Shown: in pieces, positions 2,734 to 51,055 of the stretch
How positions within the stretch are numbered: position 1 is the first letter of the stretch
How the letters are laid out: every line of letters begins with the position of its first letter
Assembly: GCA_001574975.1 (NCBI GenBank)
Contig: KQ965812.1
Span: 44,041-108,040, forward strand
Direction of reading: 5' to 3'
DNA from: Gonapodya prolifera JEL478
Taxonomy: Eukaryota > Monoblepharomycota > Monoblepharidomycetes > Monoblepharidales > Gonapodyaceae
DNA length: 64,000 nt
Notes under the pieces: model-generated
What the model saw: the letters and a program-made list of their open reading frames with translations, nothing else
Told to the model about the DNA's origin: nothing
Database searches by the model: none
Position numbers and translations under genes: made by a program

Positions 2734-3075
2734 GATGTGGGATGGGAGGCGAGGGGTGGTTGGAGTATTGTGAATCTGCGCATTTTTTTCCTTCCACATT
2801 ATTGAAATTCTAATACACGAAAAAGGCACACTCAGAAACAATTAAGATACCGTGTCCGAACACGACGTCCCATTCACATATCTGCTGGTGGAGACTGTTG
2901 GATGGATCACGGGCGAAAACGTCATTTGGAGTATTGGCGATTCTCCTCGCTTCATTTGTTCCCACTTCATTAAATTCACTCGTATTACACAAAACATACA
3001 CTCAAAATTAAGTAAAAACACAGCACCCTCACACCGCCTCCCATTACGTATCTGTACCCTTCAATCCCACACCTC
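2734..3075. other. Convergent intergenic region
   Basis: This is the 3' flank between the AAA ATPase (+) and the DOMON gene (-). It holds AT-richer stretches such as attattgaaattctaat that could serve 3'-end formation. I see no gene in it. Confidence 0.5.
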
Positions 3076-4419
3076 TCACGCAAGCACGCTCCCAACACCA
3101 AGAGCCACAACAGCCGTAAGCGCCGACCACACTACGGACACTCTGGAGACACTTGCCCCCGGCTTCGACGACGGCGCAGGTGCTGGAGCAGACGCGGGAC
3201 CGGTGCCGGGAGGACACACGGCCCTCTTCCTGTACCCGCCGTAAGACGAGGACGGAGGGGCGGCGGCGCGCGTGGTTGCGGTGGAGGTGGACGGTGTGGC
3301 GGCGGCGGCGAGGGGTACGCAGACGGGATCGACCGAGGGTGCGAAATCGACCAGAGTGACGTTGGTCAGCACGTCGTGGAAGCTGTGCTTCATGATGGGG
3401 GCGTCGAAGGAAGCGTTTGGCGGGGTGCCGAGGCGGTAGACACTGGCGGTGGGACCGTGGGTTGGTACCGTTACATTTCGGAGGGATTCGCCTCCGACGG
3501 ACTCCCAGATCACAAGCAACTAATCCGTTCCGCGGTGTGTTTCTTGTTTCTTCCGGCAGACTCCTCGGGCGGCGCTATCGCGCCTAGGCCTCGGGTTCGC
3601 TCCGCGAAAGGGTCCTCTGTCAGCGCTATCACACCTAGGCGCTCCGCGAATACAATTTAGCTTCCCGGGTCATTCGCCTCCGGCGCAAGAATAGGCTCCG
3701 CGTGGGACAGTCGCCTCGGTCAGCCCTTCGCGCTTAGGCCTCGGAGTCCTCGCTCCGCGCAGAGCTCGGACTGCTCAGTCTTCCGTGCTCCGCACTCCAG
3801 ACCTCGCAAGCAACTCACAGTGCAAAGTTGTTCGCTCCCCTCTTCAAATCATTATCAAGCGCATCCCCGGTCAAGTAAAGTCTCCTGAACACGACGGTGA
3901 AGTTGCCCGAAGTGGCGTTGTACGAGGACGACGAAGCGACTGCGGTGATGTCCTGCGATGCGTCAGGAAGGGGCATTTGGTAGGCGACGGCCTTGCGATC
4001 AGATACGATGACGGTGCCGTTGGCGCCGGCCCAGGCCATGTGGATGTCTTTTGGTAGAGTAGAGGGGCAGGAAGGTGAGAGGTGCGTGCAGCATAAAGTA
4101 GCAGGTGGCAGATTGATAAGGAACGTACCTGTTCCTGGCATGGTGGCGTTGTCGGACATGACGCCAAGAGCGATCCAGCTGCCAGGTAGCACGCAGACGT
4201 TTTCAGCGACGAGAGCGAGACTGGAGGGCGAAAAATGTACTCCCACCTGATGTTCTGCTTGACGATCGTGAGCGTGATCTCCACAAAGCCATTCGACCTG
4301 TCAGCAGCAGTCGCGCAGAACGTGGGCTCGTTGGGTGCGCAGAGCGTGGCTGCGGTCGATGTGGCGACGAGTCCCGCGAGCGCGAGCGCGAGTGCGAGCA
4401 GACGTGCGATGCGAGCCAT
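3076..4419 (-). CDS. Secreted DOMON-domain protein, probably GPI-anchored
   Basis: Four exons on the minus strand (4419-4247, 4178-4129, 4047-3819, 3442-3076) join to 272 codons in frame. The N-terminus (MARIARLLALALALAG) is a signal peptide. The DOMON domain follows, with the typical SWIALGVMSDNATMPGT block, then HMAWAGANGTVIVSDR, a GANNF segment and a late conserved His (MKHSFHD). DOMON domains bind haem or sugars, as in the cytochrome domain of cellobiose dehydrogenase. A Ser/Thr/Ala/Pro linker and a C-terminal hydrophobic tail (ALTAVVALGVGSVLA) suggest a GPI anchor. There is no attached flavin or b561 domain, so this is a stand-alone DOMON protein at the cell surface. Its third intron (3443-3818) is unusually long and consists largely of a repeat also present in the SKI3 gene. 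The last acceptor was chosen by frame and by the DOMON pattern. Confidence 0.75.
3455..3800 (-). mobile_element. Repeat family copy A, filling the DOMON intron (introner-like)
   Basis: Written on + it contains ggttggtaccgttacat (from 3460), ttcgcctccgacggactcc, aggcctcggg and cctcggtcagcccttcgcgc. The same blocks in the same order recur at 33703-33900. Short hairpin-like blocks with alternating tccgcg/cgcgga pieces make it GC-rich. It lies entirely inside intron 3 of the DOMON gene, with the host gene on the minus strand. No coding capacity is seen. Confidence 0.7.
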
Positions 4420-11165: not shown

Positions 11166-11726
11166 TCAATCTATGATACACCTGTCCATGTCGTCCACCA
11201 ACGATGAATATGCGTCATCATCCTCAGAGAATTCTGCGGCCTTTCCGCCATCTCTGCAATGGCGTGTCACTGCACAGCGGAGGTGGTAGTGCAAGAGCTT
11301 TTGATGCGCAAAAAGTGTCACCCATTGTTGCTCCACTCCTCCATCACTTACGCTCCCCTCTGGCATGTGAAGTATCTTTCCATTATGAGCAAAGAGCGAG
11401 TGACTACCTGCCAGAACCAGCACTCTGTATGTCGTGTCGGAACCAGACACAGGGACCAATGACCATTCAAGTCTGTCAAATGTACTGCAAAGCGCTGCTT
11501 CCAGCAAAACTCCGTTTTCCAAGCCGTTGATGCCAACCCTGGAAAGAACAAGCTGAACGCTGTGGGGGTATTGATGAAAGGTGCTTGGTGCACTCCCAGA
11601 GATGGGGATAACGTGACACCCCTGCAAGGCTTTAGTGTAGCATTCCCTCGTGATGACACAGGACCGATTCCGCTGGAGTGGTTCTTTGCGAAATGATGTT
11701 TGAGCGGGCGTTCTTGCCGGGTCCAC
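11166..11726 (-). CDS. HNH-nuclease-domain-like protein (partial model)
   Basis: A 186-codon minus-strand frame contains SCVITRECYTKALQGCHVIP, then a spacer, then NGLENGVLLEAALCSTFD. This is the pattern of fungal HNH_2-type domains: a CxxT core, a His-x-Ile-Pro metal-site strand, and an N-G-x-x-L-L...FD helix. The C-terminal tail is acidic (EFSEDDDAYSSLVDDMD). Fungal proteins of this type are common, lineage-expanded and mostly of unknown function. The true N-terminus probably lies in one or more further exons between 11730 and 11950 (a helical SYRLSYSLSKLMELKAAQ frame is seen there), but I could not fix the junction. It may also be a decaying copy, because the consensus R-x-G before the Cys is weak. 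Confidence 0.5.
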   Translation of the reverse strand: MDPARTPAQTSFRKEPLQRNRSCVITRECYTKALQGCHVIPISGSAPSTFHQYPHSVQLVLSRVGINGLENGVLLEAALCSTFDRLEWSLVPVSGSDTTYRVLVLAGSHSLFAHNGKILHMPEGSVSDGGVEQQWVTLFAHQKLLHYHLRCAVTRHCRDGGKAAEFSEDDDAYSSLVDDMDRCIID

Positions 11727-12084
11727 TGGAAACTGAGCTTGAGCTGGATGATTTGAGCCCCACAGATGTTCCAGATCTCATTTCAGGGTTCAGGGGTTCC
11801 ATCGGCCGTCCTTGATGCCACTCGTGGGAGTATGTATTGTGCTGCTTTCAACTCCATCAGCTTCGACAATGAGTATGATAGCCGATAGCTCAGCTCCATA
11901 ATTTCACCAGAGGAAGAGCTCGAGTTGGGGCACCGTCTCCCCATTTGACAAGGATTCGCTTGGCATCGCTTACTGCAAGGAAAAGGGCAAGAAGAGAAAA
12001 AGGTCGGAGTCACAGGAAAGGCAACAATGAGCTGCGGCCTCTATGACTGTGGTCACCAAAGCTTCCTTTCCGATCGCAACGACG

Positions 12085-13921: not shown

Positions 13922-16407
13922 TTACGAAGCAATGTAGCCGACCGCGAATTTGTCTTTCATCGCCTTGGCAGCGTTACCGTGAATGGCGCGGAAGTCCTCG
14001 GTCGCGTCTTGGCCTGCCACGATCATGATCGATTTGGCACCTGACACGCAATGAGAGAAATCCGTTAACACATTTGAAGTGCGGTTGCGGTGTCGGGAAA
14101 AAACGACTCACCACCAGGATGACGTTTCAAGAACTTTGTGCAGTCCAGAACCAACGCGTCAATGACGATGTAGCAGTCGGTCTCCGACTTATGCAATGCC
14201 ACTTCTGCCATCGTCATGGGTTTGAGGCCCTCCTTTAGTGTGGCCTTGCTCTTCGCGGGTTCCGCCGCGACGGTGGGGGTCGGTGAGGAAAGGGCCTTTT
14301 CCCGTGGCATCCACCCATCCTCTTTGGACTTGCTAATGTTGGTGGGATGTTGCCATGTGTAGGTCGATGTCGCGGGGTCGAAGAAGAGCTTCACGCGGTA
14401 CCACTGGCAAACACGGACTGTGAAACACGATTGCTATTGAGACTTGAAAGGATAACTCACGTTATTGGACATCATCCCCAGCAAGTTCCATGTTTGCTCC
14501 CTGGGTTGTGTGTTCTGGCTGGCGTCCCAACATCGCACGAGCACTTCCCCCACTTCAGACACGGAGTCGGCATCTGGGTTCTCTTTCACCGGAACCTCAA
14601 CCTCCGTCTCCCATAAAAACCAGCACCAGAAGCGTGTCCCGTGGCGCGGTGCGCCGTCGGTACTACCGTGTCGGACGGAGGGGACCAGGTGCCATGTTTG
14701 ACCATTGTCCACAGAGAGTTCCACCCGGATGATTCGGCGGCCACCCCCCGTGTATGCGTATCCCTTGACAGGTAGCCGTACGGTTGTGGGAGAAGATCCA
14801 GTCTTCTTCACGTCGCATGGGGTTCCGTGAGATGGAGTAGTGATGACGGAGTTGATGTTGCGCTCGTTGATGATGAACTCGGGTCGGCGCCTTGAGAGAA
14901 AAACAAGTTTGGAATCAACTTTCGTGCATGTTGCAAGAGCTCTGGGACATCGAAACCCACCACCAATTGACCTTACTCGTGCCGCCTTTGGAGTTGGGAA
15001 TTTGGGTGGTGGTGAGTGCCACAGCGGCAGAGGTGACGTTTGGCGGAAGGACTCTATTATCCTCAAAATGGTAGGTGGAATCGCTTTCCTAGAGATTCGT
15101 ACCGTAATGAGCGCAAGCCCTGCACATAGGAAGTGCGACCGAACACCCACCGACTCGCTGACTGTGACCTTGGAAAGCCACTTGACCATACGGCCACCGA
15201 TCCAGCCCGGAATGATGACTCGAAGTGGGTAGCCGTGGTCGGGGGGGAGTTGCTGCGCATTTTTTTTTTTTTTTCGTGAGTTAGATTGTGTGGTGTGAAG
15301 CGAGACGTGGGAAGGCATACCTCTCCGTTCATCTCGTACGCCAAAAGAATGTCGGACGTGTAATCCAGAGCCATTTCGACAGGGACAGTCGTTCCGTAGT
15401 AGCCTTTCGGAAGGGTTTCCGCTCCAGCAAAGTTGACGAATCGTGGTTCGGCGACGGTGCCGTCTTCCCGCTTTGCAGACTTGACGCCCCCGCAAAGCTC
15501 AAGAACGTAAGAGAGCGGTACGCCTGACCATACGGCGGTGGATACGGCTGCAGGACCCCAGCTAGTCGAGAGTTGTACGCTTAGAAATCCGCAGTGTTGG
15601 AGGTCGAGGCGAAAACGAGACGAGACGAACCTGAAGCCCTGCGAGTTCTTGGTGACGTTTTGCTCGTGTCGTCGGTTCCCCGCGCAGGTAAGTGTGACCT
15701 GGAAGGTAGATTTGGGCATCGATGCGATTTCGTCCATGGTGAAGGTCCGAGGGTTACGAACGAGCCTGTAAATAAAGCAAGCACGGTGAAATTGACGCAT
15801 GTACGCATGGCAACTGCAGTCGAGAACGCACCCGTCAAAGGAAACTTTGAACTCGGACCACTCAAGGTTGGGCACTGGCCCGTGATTGCGCACGTAATGC
15901 AGCGCATTCGGTGTGAGACCATTGTGCTGTTCTGCAGCTTCCATAAGAGACGTGATCGGTGCCTATCGAACAAGAATTTCCTATGAGTCTCATTCAACAA
16001 TGTGCATATGATCCAAGCCTGACCTCAGAATTGAAGGGATGCCGCCCAGTCAAGCGAACCATGTCCGGATGACGAGGAATCCAGTTGTCCTGTGTCAAAA
16101 GAACAACGTTTACAGAATGCTGAGAGAGAAAAAATGCGAGGTGACCCACAGGTGTGTCCCCATCCCGCTTGTCGACATCACCATTCCACTGCCGCAATTC
16201 AGAAGGCAGTTCCAAGGCCTGCGACTCTTTTCCCTTGGTGAGTGTGTCATTCCGCTTCCCATTCCCGGCCGATGTGATGGCCGCGATTAGGGTTGCGCCT
16301 GCGACACCGGATAGCGCCCCCAGCGTTGCCGCGATTGCCCACACGGGCTGCGACGTCGCCGGTGCGTCTGTCAGCGAAAGCGATGCGATCAGCGGAATGA
16401 TGGACAT
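13922..16407 (-). CDS. Nitrate reductase (molybdopterin + cytochrome b5, no FAD domain)
   Basis: Nine exons (16407-16024, 15962-15832, 15765-15631, 15561-15321, 15252-15151, 15088-14964, 14890-14461, 14403-14112, 14040-13922) sum to 1959 nt, or 652 codons. The order is: an N-terminal hydrophobic segment (about residues 20-42); the Mo-cofactor domain, with MVRLTGRHPFN, NALHYVRNHGPVP, the active-site Cys in TLTCAGNRRHEQN, STAVWSGVPL and IIPGWIGGRMVKWL; the Mo dimerisation domain, ending NTQPREQTWNLLGMM; then a cytochrome b5 domain with both haem histidines (KRHPGG and AIHG). It then stops. Fungal nitrate reductases usually continue with FAD and NAD(P)H domains and run to about 850-900 residues; the next gene begins within 130 bp, so those domains are absent. 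Sulfite oxidase is the alternative, but the motifs fit nitrate reductase better. Confidence 0.82.
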
Positions 16408-43034: not shown

Positions 43035-46000
43035 ATGGCAACTCTCGTACAATCGGGCGGCAGCTCGACTCTGACAGCGGTCGAATCGCGTGCCCCCGCG
43101 CTCTCGTGGCGTGTGACTCCAGAGGAGCTGGAGCAGTACGACCGGCAGTTCTCGCAGGGATCTTCCACGCTGTTCTTCCGGGAGGCGAAGCTCGAAATTT
43201 GTATCGGTGAGTCAACGATACGTGCGATTCGAGCGATTCACTGGCTTGTTGATCACTTTCGTTGATATGCCATTTTCATTCACCGTCGTGTTCACAACAA
43301 CAGATATTTCTGGCTCCACCGCTGGTCTCTGTCTCACGGTAGAGCAAAAGGCCGCGACGGCGCTCGCTGCGGGCAATCCCGACGCACATGTGATACCTTG
43401 GCACAGTTCTGTCATGCCGCGGCTGGGCATCTCCCAAGTCGGTTCGTTGCGGTCTCAGGGTGGTACATCACCTGAGTATCTACTCGAAGGAGGTGCGAGC
43501 TTGGAGCACATCAAGGAATCGAGTGAGTTTGAGAACCCCCACATTATGGAACACCCATTCACTGACCACCGCGATCCATAAGATGTTTGGGCCCTGTTTA
43601 CGGATGGCGAAATATCGGGAAGAGATGTCACACGGCTTGCCACGTTGACTTCTACACAAAACGTTGGCCATATCCCAGTGGTAGTTGTCGTGTTCGGACA
43701 CCAACGTGGCACTCCGTCACAGACAAACATTTCCGTTGGGATCTCGCTTTTTGCTGGTGCGTTTGATCCCCGCCCCCGCTTTGCCTGTGGTGTTTAACGT
43801 TCGCATTTACAATACTCAACCTAAAAAGCATGCGAGCACGTTCTCTTTCTCTACCAAGTCGTCGAACAAACACTTTCTGACCCATATATCCTCCAAAGCA
43901 AGGGCTGCTTCGCATCTCTCGGAAACGTCGCCGATCTCAGCCCAACCACTCCTTGGTCCGACCTTCCGCGCATCCCGTGGGCGGAACTGTCGTCCATCCA
44001 AATCCCGCGCACCCACCAGGCCATGCCAGGCGTAACACGACTCTCCCCGACCCTCCTCGTTCGCCTTCCTACCCTCTTAAACGCTCGCCTTCCGGACGAC
44101 GAACTGCTCTCCATCATCAACGACGACGAAACCCTCCGCAACCTCGTGCTCCTCTGCACCACTCGCGGACTTGGTGCGCAGCTCCGCTCGTGGCTCACCT
44201 CGCGCCTCAGGGACCCAGGCGAGGCTGTAAGACACGAGGACGTTGCTGGAGCTGCTGGGGCCATGCAGAGACTCATGGCGGTGAGGGAGGCGAACGCACC
44301 GGTGGAGGAGCTGCTGAGACACCAGGCTGCACTTCGGGAGGCCCACGCGGCGAACGAGAGGCATTTCAGGAGCGGGTTCGATGCAGTACGGTCGAGGGAA
44401 TCGGAATTTAGACAGTTTAATGCTGCCATCAATGCTGCGGTGGGGTTGCTGGGCGCGACGGAGAGGGCGGGGTATTCGGCGGAAGTATTGGGAACAAGGC
44501 TTTCAAATCGGGCGATGCGGGCACAAAAGGTGAGAGGTACTCAATCAAACTGAATGATAGTTCCACTGGCTGACTTGATACGTTTAGGTTTCTGAAGCAG
44601 ACACGACGGAGCATCTCACCAAGATCGTAGAAGGTGATCCGACTGACCCCAAGTCTGCATTCCGAGGAGAATGTACTGTGTGCTGCGAGACCGGTGCTGT
44701 GGTGAGTGGTGATGGGCAATGTCTTTGCTCCTTTATTGATTCCTCACCTTGTTTTGAAACATCAGCTCTCACTCACGATGAAACGCGTGGTTTCGGACAG
44801 TGAGTCGCCCGAGATCAACACCGGAGATTTTGCTCTCGATTTCCCTCTGGCTGTGGGAGCACAGGTGAGAATACAGATATCTTACCAATGTGGACTCGAG
44901 ACTAACAGCACAACAGCCCCACAACGACATCATCGCCTCGCAAGTGGTGTGTTCGAGCTGTGCTGACTATATAGTGAGAGAGTACGGTCGAACTTTGGTG
45001 GGTTCATCACGTTTTGTCGAGGAAAAAGTGGCACCTGTCGTCTAAATCTTGTTTTGGTTTTTGCACAGTTCCGAGAAGACGCGACGATCTCCATTCCCCT
45101 TGTTTCCATCAAGTGTGTCATCATTCTTCTTTTGTGTTCTCGTACATGCCATTATCTGAAATCATGTCTTCCTACCACAGGGAAAAAGACAACAAGGACA
45201 TTATTGACACAAGACTTGCTCTCGCCCTCACAAACGGCCTCAAGACTGGAAATGCATTCCAAGTTATGGTCTCTGTCCTCGACAGCACTCTTGCGAATAA
45301 GCCATGGGCTCAGGTCCACCCTGGCTCAGATGACGACGAAGCAAAGGTCCGCCGTGGCGCCTTGGAATGGTTCAAGAACGATCTTATCACGAACATGCGT
45401 ACCCGGAACAACTTTCAGGAGACGGGTGAATGGACGACTCTTCCAAAGGCTGTGCAGTGGGCGGTTGAAGATGCTGTGAATGGTGGCTATCGGGCGTGGC
45501 TTTACCGATACCCAGCCGAAGGCTTCTCAGTTCTGTTGAGAATTGCAAAGGATCCAAGCTTTGGGATCACTTTGCCACTGGATGGAGGACTGGGATTCGT
45601 GCATAAAAGGTTGATGCTGGCCATCACTGACTGGTGAGTGCTTTGTTGGTTGTATCATTTGACTCATTTCCTAATTGGATCACATGTAGGTACATGAGGG
45701 AAACACTGAAGGGAAAAGATCAACAGCAGAGTGTTCGCGAGAACCTCTGGAAGGCTTTGTACGGGGAACTCCGCTACGGCAAGCCAGTGGAGGGTTTCGG
45801 ACGGATAGTTGGGTCATTTTCGGAACTGGGCTTCGACAAAACTTACGAAGCCAAGTACTACAACCGTCTTCTTGCCGAATCATACAACTTGGGTCAAGTC
45901 GGCAATGTTGGCGCCACCTCTTTCCCCTACCCCAGCGCAACCTCACTGTTTCTTCGTCGGCTCCTCGAAATCAACCGACACGATTCGATCACGAATGCAA

Positions 46001-46728
46001 TTCAATCGGTTCGAACTAATGATACTGAGTGCGTCAATGCTCTTGATTTCCCCAATACAGTTACGCGAGAAGCAGCCTTGGCGGTGATTGAGGAGATGTT
46101 CTTCCACCTGGAGGAGGGCGTTGGGGAGGGAATTACCGTGAATACACGAACAACTCACATTTCTCATGAGTCACTCTTCGCCACTCCCTATGGGCCTTCG
46201 GTGCTGGCATGTGACTGTTGCAAGGAGAAGTTCGCAGCATCTGGAATGCGCGGCACTGCAACTGAGCTGGCCGCCGCACTTCGGCTTGGAAGAGGAAATC
46301 ACTTTCGTCAAGTTTACGGCACAACTGGAGAGTCTGGACTACCGGTGAAGATTGTTGAGACCAATGGGAGACTTTTACCTCCCGCTGGCTGCTGGAACGG
46401 AGCGCGAGTGATCACGAGGTTGTGGTCCACGCTTTCTGTGGAAAATCGCGCCGCTTACTTGAATGGAACCAGTGATGTGGAAACGTTTGTGGAGGATGTT
46501 GTGAGATACATCGTGACGGAAGATCAGCGGGGCAACATCTACTCTACTCAGCTGAGGTCGAATGCCCGGCAACAATTCCAATCGTTCCTGGAGAAAGTCC
46601 GTGCGCTCGGTTTCGAGAATGTAGGCGACCATTTCTCTTTGCCGTGGAAGCTTGGGATGGAACTCGGCAAGTCCCTGGTGGAGATTAAGAAGGATATTGA
46701 GGAGGGGGTGCAATGGACTCTTCCATAA
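43035..46728 (+). CDS. VWA-domain protein with Cys-rich segment, unknown function
   Basis: The ATG at 43035 opens MATLVQSGGSSTLTAVESR. The second exon begins DISGSTAGLCLTVEQK, a VWA MIDAS (DxSxS); the matching late MIDAS strand is VWALFTDGEISG, followed by VGHIPVVVVVFG. A helical region follows (SPTLLVRLPTLLNARLPDDELL to LLGATERAGYSAEVLG). Then comes a possible zinc-binding piece, GECTVCCETGAV, with its second half IIASQVVCSSCADYI two exons later. The C-terminal 500 residues, ending at 46728, are helical and contain VLACDCCKEKF. I do not recognise a family for the whole; multi-domain VWA proteins of unknown function occur in fungi. Joining the N-terminal and C-terminal parts (junction near 45110-45180) is inferred from continuous coding and phase, so two genes remain possible. 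Confidence 0.65.
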
Positions 46729-46813
46729 CTTGATTTTTTTTTTTTTTCCTTCGTTACATTCAACATCGGGGAAGATTTTCAAATGTGTAGTTGGGACTCT
46801 CGACATGCCTTAA

Positions 46814-49800
46814 TTAATCATTGGGAAAATGTCTAGCCACTTCTATTCCAATATCAATGTCCTCCAACGCAACAGCTTTTACAATTAGCCGCGCGAGAGA
46901 GAGGGTTTCAAGAGGGGCGTCGCCACTATTGAACTTGATCGTTCGGCGGGGATATTTTTCGTCACCCTCACGTCGATATCGTTTCCCATAAACGACAACA
47001 TCACGAAATATTGAGGCGTCCCTGCAAAGGGTACGCAGCAAAGCGTCCTCGCCACTGACATCCTGTGACACCAGAGTGTCTCCGAAAATATCATCGTCAT
47101 CGCCAGTGCTATAGAAGTCAAGGTTTCGGTACCAAAGATCACCGTTTTTGGAAGAAATATCTTGAAAGTAATTTTCCAGTCCTTGAGTAACCCGTAGAAG
47201 GCTGAAAACTGCTTTCGCTCCCTCGAAGTAGACATGTGCCTCTCCTGTTCCATCTTCAACCACCGCCCTCGCTTCAGAAGTGAAACGCCCGCGACCAGAT
47301 CCACAAGAGTTGATGCACCGCCGGTCACGAAATGCCATGCCACAGACTTCGCATGCGAACCGAAACGAAACCTCTGCAAGCGCAATGATACGGCATTCTA
47401 TACGAACGTATGTTCGAAGGTTCATGGTATCAACCTCCAAAAGCTCACAGAGGTAGTATGCTGGAAGAGAAGCCAAGTATGCGAAGGGAATCTCGCCCAG
47501 TTGACCGTTCCACGATGATAGAGGCCCTGACGTTGCTTTAGACTGCCCACATACTTCTACCGACGTGCAAGAGAGACTGACACAGTAGACTGATCTGCCC
47601 CCTTTGGATGCTTTCCTCGCGCTCTGCCAAATGCGAACAATAGATCCTCGCAAAAGTCCCAGAGGCCACGCAGTCACTCCAATATCCCAATAAAAATCTA
47701 AAACGTCGAGCCCGCGCAAATCTCGGATCCTGAGATACAGAACTCTTCCGGCCTTTCCCGTACCCACCCCGTAATTTCGGAACACGTCGGCAGCGCTGTG
47801 ACGCACCTTGTGACTAGCGTAACTAAGCCACGACATCCCGCTACTCTCTCCGTCTCGAAACTCCTTCGCGACGACCACGCCTTGGAACGAAACGAGTCGT
47901 TCGAGATAGCCGTGTGGCGCGAACTTTCCGGAATTTGCATCCCCCGAATTGAGTATATCCTGTATCGATGTCAGTTCTGCAGCGTGGGAGGGATATGTAA
48001 CGTGCAGCATTGGGAAGGTTGGGGACAAAGATGATTGCCATTGCAGATTAAATGTCACATGTCCAAGAAGGTCCAAAACGACACCCCGTTCCGTACCAAG
48101 TGTGCTCGTAGGAACACTGGTGCTTGGTTCCACGCACAGGTTCGCATCTTCTATAGTCATCTCATGATCTTGCGTCAGAAGGGACACGGCATCGTCGGAA
48201 TCATGTGATTCAAGTTGGAGCTGCTCTCCGCTTTCATCGGAGTGCAATGTTGCAAACCCCGATTTGGATAGTATGTCCAGGTTGAAAAGCTCTTCTGCAT
48301 CTGCAATAATTTCTCCCGGAACTCCTGGAACCTCACGCATCGTTACCCCTCGAAAACGATAGCATCGACCCACTTCGATGAAGGCCATGTATTTCGCAGC
48401 CTCGCCCGCAAAAAAGACATGCGCCAAGTTTCCAGTGACATCGGCAGTTTCGCCAGGCGTCGCTCCTTCGATGTCATCAAAGCTGACAACGCCTTCACAC
48501 TGCGCCCTGTATTCGACAGAGTTTTCGGTAACATCAAAAAGCTTGGGCAGTGATATGTGCGTGATCTTAATTAGAAGTGAAACTCCTCGGCGTGGTTGAG
48601 CAGGCTCTTCCATAATCGTAGAAGCACTCTCAGCGGCCAAGACTTCTGTGGGGTCTGCGCTTCCTTCCCGAGGTTCAACCTCCTTTGTTTGCAGAGAATC
48701 TACCGTGACCAGACAAACAATATCCTCTTGACTGCATTGGATCCATACCACGGAACCGCCAGGTTCGACGCGCTCCACCACGACTTCCCACCGTTCAATC
48801 ATCCAGATACCACCTCTTGCTCGCGGATCGAAAAATCCGGATAAAGGACTCATTGGAGCTCGATCGATAATTAAAGGGATAGTCCCTGTGCCGTCAATGA
48901 GAACAAAATGCGCCTTTGTAGATACGTCCAGACGCCCCACGATAACCGCTCGATCCATGTTTAAGTCAGATGGGCGAAAACTTTTAACACCATAGTCTTC
49001 TCCCAAAGACGCTTCTGTAACAAGTTGATGCCTCAAAACCGCCGATATCGTTGGCATACGACGGAGCTCGAAACCGATACGCACTGCTGTACACTTTGAA
49101 TGGTCAAGAAAGCTTGCGAACGCGTCCGGAGCGGGTGCATGAGTACCACCGTGAGGGGCCCACCGTTTGGCGAGCGCGACAAGAAGACCGTCGAATGGCG
49201 GGTCCGATGACCCGAAGAGGTCTGATCGCGACAGATATCGAGTGAGACCTTTGCGACGGAGATCGCAGTGCAAGACGTGAAAATGCACGACATCCAAAGG
49301 GGATGCAATCTGCGCCATTGATACTAAAACGGGGTACTGGATCTGGTTGGTCGTTGGGACAGGGACTCGTGGACCCAGACCGGCAAGGGCTTTAACTTCG
49401 ACTGTGGACCGCACACACGCAACGAGTATGGCTTTACCCTCCACGGTGCGAGTCAGGTGAACGTTGCGGCATTCCAACAAGCATCCGCGCGCAAGGTCAA
49501 GAGGCGGCAGGATCTGCTGGTGAAAATGGAGTTCGAGTTCGTCGTCCAAAATCAGAAGACGGCCCGTGAGAAGATTGGACGGCAGCTGAGAGACTGTCCC
49601 GGTGTATGAAATAAGAAATGTTGTAGAGTCACTTATAGCTCCGGCGACTTCGAGTTTCCGACCAAACTGCTCCAAAAGTTCGTGTCCACGAACCATCCTA
49701 GACGATGGCACGGCGGCGCCACCACCACCTTCTGCCTCTCTTCGCTCGCTATTCTCCGGCGAAACCACCGTCCATACCCTACTCTTCCCGTCCACAAACG

Positions 49801-51055
49801 CCGCAACTCGCTGGTTGCCCATCTGCTTCACCGCAAAGTCAGAGAACACATACTCCCCGCCAACACGGAGGATGGCATGAAAAGAGTGTGGGTGGGCAAG
49901 TTTGAACACCAAGTTTGTCGAGAAAAAGGACGCGCCGGCGAAGACTTCCGAGGGATGGGTGGAGGCTTGGATCCCTTTTTTCTCCAACTCTTCCGGGGTT
50001 GTCGCTGGTCCGTTTGTCTCCTTCGTATCCACATTCGTACTCGCAACATCCACCGCAGACCTATTCTGCTCGCCGTAGCGAACGTTTAGAAAGAAAACAC
50101 CACCACTGGACCGACCGCGTATGATGGGAGACTTGGCCGATACGACCCCGCGCAGGGTGACCGAGGTGAGCCGAGGCAGCATGGTTCGGGTGAAAGTCCT
50201 CACTGCTGGATCAACGAGTGTGGGGACAGGCAGGAGTGGCGACTCTGGATCCATCGCACCGTTCGAAAAGGGTGCCTTGTCTCTCGACGCGCTTCCTTCG
50301 AGGTACTGGTTCACCGGTCTGAGCGCGCCGAGAAGCGTGGCCGCGTGCAAGTGTGGGAATTTTTCAAGATCAGCGGTCCACCCCCTCGCCTCGGGCGTGT
50401 TGGAAAGGGGGTCGAAGTCGTCCGAATTGAAGTGGTATGAGTGGATCTTATTGAGCGGGTGGTGTCGCGGCACAGGGAACGGAGTGTCCGATATCACGAG
50501 GAGACCACTGTGCAGGGTCGCCGGGCTCGGTTTCGGCCGAGCGTTTCCAGGAACGCCTACGGCGGCGGAGGCAACAGCGTCAGGTACATACGTGAACGAC
50601 GGGACGCAGAGCGGTGCGCCAGACCAGGGCGATTGCGTGTATTTCATGAGCGATTTAGCGTCATGTACCACTGTCGCTGAAGTGGAGGGGCTGTCAGCTG
50701 TGATGTCGAGTGAATCCCGCTTTCCAGCGTCGTCGCCCGACGTGCAGCCGGAGAAAACCAGCTCGACGAGAGCATGCCGCGTTTGCGGTGCACCCTGCCC
50801 AAAGTGACAGCGAATCGCCCCGGTCCTGTCCGAGAGGAAGAACGAATCTGTGGCCTTTCGCAAGTGGAGGGGCTGACTGAGAGGCCATCCGGCGTGCAAA
50901 GTCACCAGGAGAATCGGGATTGGATCATCCGGAGCTCCAGGTTTGGCGGTCGCGTGGTCTTGAGGGATTGGAGGGAGACTGGATAAAGATGATATTGTCG
51001 AGATCCGGAAGAACCGAAGTGAAGCTTCGTCGAGGCCACGGGACCCATCGCTCAT
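46814..51055 (-). CDS. CTC1: CTC1-like telomere-maintenance protein (CST complex)
   Basis: A single uninterrupted 1413-codon frame, exceptional here where other genes have many introns. It reads as a chain of OB folds (for example LVSFQGVVVAKEF and RVECRIIALAEVSF-like strands). The C-terminal third matches the CTC1 pattern: GLLRGSIVRIWQSARKASKG..VYCVSLSCTSVEV (about residues 1130-1165; human CTC1 has a cognate LLPGARVHFSQLEK...NVYCCF segment), then YYLCELLEVDTMN, a zinc knuckle C-x2-C...C-x3-C (CEVCGMAFRDRRCINSC, about 1231-1250), and ARAVVEDGTGEAHVYFEG. CTC1 with Stn1 and Ten1 binds telomeric single-stranded DNA and recruits DNA polymerase alpha for C-strand fill-in. An OB-rich RPA1-like protein is the alternative, but length and C-terminal order favour CTC1. 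A rearranged partial copy lies at 58.6-59.8 kb. Confidence 0.72.
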   Translation of the reverse strand: MSDGSRGLDEASLRFFRISTISSLSSLPPIPQDHATAKPGAPDDPIPILLVTLHAGWPLSQPLHLRKATDSFFLSDRTGAIRCHFGQGAPQTRHALVELVFSGCTSGDDAGKRDSLDITADSPSTSATVVHDAKSLMKYTQSPWSGAPLCVPSFTYVPDAVASAAVGVPGNARPKPSPATLHSGLLVISDTPFPVPRHHPLNKIHSYHFNSDDFDPLSNTPEARGWTADLEKFPHLHAATLLGALRPVNQYLEGSASRDKAPFSNGAMDPESPLLPVPTLVDPAVRTFTRTMLPRLTSVTLRGVVSAKSPIIRGRSSGGVFFLNVRYGEQNRSAVDVASTNVDTKETNGPATTPEELEKKGIQASTHPSEVFAGASFFSTNLVFKLAHPHSFHAILRVGGEYVFSDFAVKQMGNQRVAAFVDGKSRVWTVVSPENSERREAEGGGGAAVPSSRMVRGHELLEQFGRKLEVAGAISDSTTFLISYTGTVSQLPSNLLTGRLLILDDELELHFHQQILPPLDLARGCLLECRNVHLTRTVEGKAILVACVRSTVEVKALAGLGPRVPVPTTNQIQYPVLVSMAQIASPLDVVHFHVLHCDLRRKGLTRYLSRSDLFGSSDPPFDGLLVALAKRWAPHGGTHAPAPDAFASFLDHSKCTAVRIGFELRRMPTISAVLRHQLVTEASLGEDYGVKSFRPSDLNMDRAVIVGRLDVSTKAHFVLIDGTGTIPLIIDRAPMSPLSGFFDPRARGGIWMIERWEVVVERVEPGGSVVWIQCSQEDIVCLVTVDSLQTKEVEPREGSADPTEVLAAESASTIMEEPAQPRRGVSLLIKITHISLPKLFDVTENSVEYRAQCEGVVSFDDIEGATPGETADVTGNLAHVFFAGEAAKYMAFIEVGRCYRFRGVTMREVPGVPGEIIADAEELFNLDILSKSGFATLHSDESGEQLQLESHDSDDAVSLLTQDHEMTIEDANLCVEPSTSVPTSTLGTERGVVLDLLGHVTFNLQWQSSLSPTFPMLHVTYPSHAAELTSIQDILNSGDANSGKFAPHGYLERLVSFQGVVVAKEFRDGESSGMSWLSYASHKVRHSAADVFRNYGVGTGKAGRVLYLRIRDLRGLDVLDFYWDIGVTAWPLGLLRGSIVRIWQSARKASKGGRSVYCVSLSCTSVEVCGQSKATSGPLSSWNGQLGEIPFAYLASLPAYYLCELLEVDTMNLRTYVRIECRIIALAEVSFRFACEVCGMAFRDRRCINSCGSGRGRFTSEARAVVEDGTGEAHVYFEGAKAVFSLLRVTQGLENYFQDISSKNGDLWYRNLDFYSTGDDDDIFGDTLVSQDVSGEDALLRTLCRDASIFRDVVVYGKRYRREGDEKYPRRTIKFNSGDAPLETLSLARLIVKAVALEDIDIGIEVARHFPND

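Follow-up and report, generated by a model that had tools for sequence, protein, structure and literature searches.

The large subunit of the CTC1-STN1-TEN1 (CST) complex in animals and plants, CTC1 (Pfam family PF15489), is made of serial OB folds, the last of which bind STN1, and its C-terminal part contains a zinc ribbon. RPA1 (RPA70), a general replication single-strand binding protein, is likewise a multi-OB protein with a zinc ribbon. In Saccharomycotina, the same position in CST is taken by Cdc13 (PMC4416457 and PMC4872678, in the parts available), and CTC1 is treated as the mammalian equivalent of Cdc13 in the available part of PMC4416457. According to the part available of PMC9119445, Stn1 and Ten1 alone are readily discernible in Ustilago maydis, and the same is true of Schizosaccharomyces pombe. 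Here we describe a frame of 1413 codons on the minus strand at positions 46814-51055 of a 64,000-nucleotide stretch of contig KQ965812.1 (the whole stretch is referred to as the window), which an earlier note had proposed to encode a CTC1-like CST subunit in a fungus. Judged from its sequence, this frame very probably specifies the CTC1 of a canonical CST complex, and its host would be a zoosporic fungus whose telomeres consist of TTAGGG repeats and whose genome also codes for telomerase and POT1.

The identity of the protein is supported by the curated Pfam CTC1 profile, which matched the whole frame protein in three stretches with an E value of 6.1e-23 and a score of 80.8 bits, compared with a cut-off of 27.8. 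The best of these stretches is C-terminal and extends from position 880 to position 1128 of the 1139 positions in the profile, while another lies in the middle of the protein (Table 1). When residues 1100-1413 were scanned alone, they matched profile positions 881-1129 (E 3.4e-13), and residues 2-852 scanned alone matched positions 210-408 (E 5.7e-10). The middle and C-terminal stretches are hence colinear with the profile, and each scores independently. The sole further family on the whole protein at E up to 10, a listing from which HMMER filters nevertheless drop most matches above E ~0.1, was the general OB model PF01336, below its cut-off. The CTC1 profile matched none of 40 other window frames that were scanned, out of 168 with at least 120 codons (at a threshold of E 0.01 for part of them and E 0.001 for the rest). 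At E 0.001, an exon-by-exon search of the 47.56-Mb, 207-contig assembly returned this frame only, in two pieces, and the 14 control genomes gave no match. A separate bona fide CTC1, which the earlier note had named as a finding that would refute its proposal, was thus not found at this threshold. A search for relatives in viral contigs gave 14 pattern matches, 0 of which were confirmed.

The frame on which this assignment depends is real and uninterrupted, as had been claimed: it starts with ATG, ends with TAA, and specifies 1413 amino acids, with an in-frame TAA one codon upstream of the ATG. From base composition, the chance of 1414 stop-free codons is ~10^-25.6, and no frame exceeded 364 codons in 100 copies of the window simulated with a first-order Markov model. 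The GC content at codon positions 1 to 3 (0.61, 0.465, and 0.534, respectively) is uneven, as in coding DNA. All the motifs quoted previously are found in the protein, i.e., the YLCELLE segment (as YYLCELLE), AVVEDGTGEAHVYF, and four cysteines between residues 1235 and 1251. The cysteines are spaced as C1235-x2-C1238-x8-C1247-x3-C1251, lie inside the C-terminal profile-matched stretch, and may form a zinc ribbon.

We considered two other families to which the protein might belong. The multi-OB build common to RPA1 and CTC1, together with the zinc ribbon of RPA1, would also suit a relative of RPA1, i.e., a protein of general replication rather than a telomere subunit. We regard this as highly improbable: no RPA family was found at E up to 10 on the frame protein (the search covered this protein and not RPA1 in the genome itself), as opposed to 6.1e-23 for CTC1, and no RPA1 chain is among its PDB matches. 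Just as improbable is that the frame encodes a fungal Cdc13 that matches the CTC1 profile because the two share a common descent. Cdc13 does occupy the same place in CST as CTC1 (PMC4416457, part available), but the POT1/CDC13 OB family (PF02765) was not found on the frame at E up to 10, and its only match in the genome, which was searched with this family rather than with a Cdc13-specific model, is at a Pot1-like gene with an E value of 0.1. Furthermore, the host repeats are TTAGGG and not yeast-type. On these profile results, both RPA1 and Cdc13 are poor rivals to CTC1.

Several genes in the assembly bear on the nature of the host. A chitin synthase together with an alpha-aminoadipate reductase is a fungal signature and, when combined with radial-spoke proteins, indicates a flagellated (zoosporic) fungus. 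Chitin_synth_1N (PF08407) had two genome matches over cut-off, and both loci also carry Chitin_synth_1 (PF01644; E 7.3e-47 and 9.3e-23). The alpha-aminoadipate reductase model (TIGR03443) matched eight colinear pieces on contig C8, the best with 454.5 bits; all pieces are short of the whole-protein cut-off (1030.1), and matches that remained below cut-off were also seen in 4 of the 14 bacterial controls. A radial-spoke protein had eight genome matches, the best with an E value of 8.7e-15. The combination of these three markers, judged by sequence, suggests that the host is a zoosporic fungus. Radial-spoke genes and TTAGGG repeats would also fit other opisthokonts, and in a non-fungal window CTC1 would be expected. 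This alternative is very unlikely in view of the Chitin_synth_1 domains that accompany Chitin_synth_1N and the eight-piece alpha-aminoadipate reductase gene. The host genome is fungal by these markers, and the proposal of a CTC1-type CST large subunit in a fungus is supported.

Genes for the partners of CTC1 were also searched for in the assembly. The TEN1 profile (PF15490) matched one exon at positions 45092-45238 of contig C55, with 32.2 bits versus a cut-off of 27; the translated frame matched with an E value of 1.7e-7, and no match was found in the 14 control genomes. An N run was noted ~480 bases downstream of the TEN1 exon on the same contig. A genome search with the STN1 C-terminal family (STN1_2, PF09170) led to contig C20, with an E value of 0.019 that is below cut-off. 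One frame at this locus matched the OB fold PF01336 (E 4.6e-6) and, below cut-off, Stn1 PF10451 (E 0.0051), while the frame just downstream matched STN1_2 (E 1.7e-4, also below cut-off). Among the PDB matches of the OB frame, STN1 was the best (E 0.039), and the next were unrelated hemagglutinins at 0.14 and more. We read this locus as a putative STN1, less surely than the other partners. The STN1-like gene is split over frames, around position 221414 of contig C20. Thus, of the two partners that the earlier note had proposed to look for, TEN1 was recovered above its cut-off and STN1 as a locus that stays below.

Further telomere genes and repeats were found as well. Telomerase (TERT) had two exon matches over cut-off. 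The single genome match to PF02765 is at positions 17746-17892 of contig C8, and all four PDB matches of the corresponding frame were to Pot1 or Teb1 (E 0.083-0.26). Approximately 1 kb downstream of this POT1 OB1 exon there is a Cys-containing frame (2862-3095 of the locus stretch) that is OB-like by eye and matched no family at E 0.01. Four tandem copies of TTAGGG occur 133 times (overlapping counts) versus once for the reversed control. Among the matches listed, the arrays are on nine contigs, with five in the first bases and three, on contigs of known length, at the far end. Hence, the genome resembles those with an animal/plant CTC1 in also having TEN1, an STN1-like locus, POT1, TERT, and TTAGGG. 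It resembles S. pombe and U. maydis, where Stn1-Ten1 is without a recognised large subunit, in that STN1-like and TEN1 genes are found in a fungus, and is unlike them in that CTC1 is present.

A number of results weigh against a canonical CTC1 and its complex. First, in the profile scan, residues 1-452 had no family match, and residues 590-1110 matched the general OB model only, with an E value of 0.058. Second, when the whole protein was compared with the PDB by phmmer, no CTC1 was returned at E 10. Residues 386-1115 did match CTC1 (E 0.08, with residues 392-558 aligned to chain residues 263-427), but an alpha-1,3-glucanase at 0.0025 ranked above it; residues 385-600 matched CTC1 with an E value of 1.2, below unrelated proteins at 0.15-0.42; and CTC1 was absent from the matches of residues 1100-1413. 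Third, AlphaFold predictions from the single sequence for residues 1036-1413 and 385-600 had a mean pLDDT (predicted local distance difference test) of 30.6 and 32.4, respectively, and were uninformative on the fold or the number of OB domains. Fourth, on the side of the partners, the TEN1 frame had no TEN1 match in the PDB, the STN1-like locus is below both Stn1 cut-offs, and the STN1_2 search also matched one bacterial control, again below cut-off. The Stn1 model PF10451 returned nothing in the genome, but since its control was empty too, this does not prove absence. Separately, the PDB matches to alpha-1,3-glucanase and to a macrophage-migration-inhibitory-factor-like protein were judged to be short chance matches.

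By analogy with animals and plants, the CTC1 described here would bind the single-stranded G-rich telomere overhang with STN1-TEN1, its C-terminal part would hold STN1-TEN1, and it would bring DNA polymerase alpha-primase to the C strand for fill-in after telomerase action. We infer complex formation, DNA binding, and polymerase alpha recruitment from this analogy, and the role of CST on which the proposed mechanism is based is the one given in the available parts of PMC4872678 and PMC4416457.

The earlier note had also remarked on the lack of introns in an intron-rich neighborhood, with retroposition as a potential cause. In 16 selected 10-kb stretches (160 kb) from other contigs or places, with frames cut at the stretch ends, the longest stop-free frame had 829 codons, and the 1414 codons of the CTC1 frame are therefore unusual. 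Genes that are split over frames or pieces include the sulfite-oxidase-like and PheRS-like genes in the window, as well as those for STN1, TERT, and aminoadipate reductase elsewhere. However, an open frame of 1023 codons underlies two pieces of the aminoadipate reductase gene, and the CTC1 gene is therefore not alone in having a long frame. The contrast in introns is thus confirmed in part.

A processed retrocopy that replaced an intron-bearing parent would explain a gene with one exon, and it would be consistent with the A14 run that lies 66 nt past the stop codon (Table 1). Runs of A or T of at least 12 are rare: there are two in the window and none in the 160-kb sample. On the other hand, the A14 run, read as a T run, sits 5 nt past the stop of a converging frame on the plus strand and may belong to that neighbor. 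The best candidate for a target-site duplication, 10 nt with one mismatch, is not significant, since 97 of 400 stretches drawn at random from the window contained one as good. Moreover, the genome search at E 0.001 revealed no parent copy, the 1023-codon frame shows that a long open frame also occurs elsewhere, and intron loss in place would look much alike. We consider a retrocopy to be possible but doubtful: the single exon and the A14 run lend the suggestion some weight, and a significant target-site duplication was not found. The converging frame (window positions 45634-46728, plus strand) has 364 codons and no Pfam match at E 0.01. The other T run of at least 12 is at position 15260 (plus strand), near a frame change of the sulfite-oxidase-like gene.

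Table 1. Features of the CTC1 locus, in window coordinates
Feature	Position	Strand	Basis
CTC1 coding frame, single exon, 1413 codons	46814..51055	-	Open reading frame list, Pfam, coding statistics
Middle CTC1-matching stretch, residues 391-589, profile 210-408	49289..49885	-	Pfam
Weak general OB-fold match, residues 872-918	48302..48442	-	PF01336, 23.9 bits, cut-off 27 not reached
C-terminal CTC1-matching stretch, residues 1115-1386, profile 880-1128 of 1139 (best stretch)	46898..47713	-	Pfam
Four-Cys set C1235, C1238, C1247, C1251, putative zinc ribbon	47303..47353	-	Cys spacing
A14 run, 66 nt after CTC1 stop, possible poly(A)-tail trace	46734..46747	-	Run scan

Elsewhere in the window, a frame on the minus strand (11169-11777) has an HNH endonuclease domain (PF13391, E 2e-6). 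An Rfam scan of the window gave no match.

By its profile match, the protein adds a new member to the known CTC1 family, in a lineage for which we found no report in the open-licence literature: among the matches listed, judged by their titles and the opening of their abstracts, none described a CTC1 in an early fungus. Other early fungi may well have automatically generated entries in databases. The protein is like CTC1 of animals and plants in that the profile is over cut-off, with middle and C-terminal parts, and unlike it in belonging to a fungal genome, in having one exon, and in that residues 1-452 are too diverged to match. Its length of 1413 amino acids compares with 1209-1246 in four of the five CTC1 PDB chains listed and 1613 in the fifth. 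The surprise is moderate because the presence of CTC1 in animals and plants already implied an early-fungal CTC1.

CTC1 was presumably inherited from the common ancestor of fungi and animals. Our findings suggest that early fungi had an animal/plant-type CST and that its loss or replacement, the latter being the Cdc13 state, came later in other fungal branches. A more elaborate scenario, which we put forward tentatively and think unlikely in its entirety, is that the complete CTC1-STN1-TEN1-POT1 set of the opisthokont ancestor persisted in zoosporic fungi, that the sole CTC1 here is a retrogene that replaced its intron-bearing parent, and that in other fungi the role later passed to Cdc13 or to Stn1-Ten1 alone. 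Fungal telomere biology, as seen in the available parts of the papers cited above, rests on Cdc13 and on species with Stn1/Ten1 only, and a CTC1-bearing fungus fits a fungal ancestor of the CTC1 type. The descent of Cdc13 from CTC1, as opposed to replacement, becomes testable via the lineages in between, and this organism would allow CST to be studied in a flagellated fungus.

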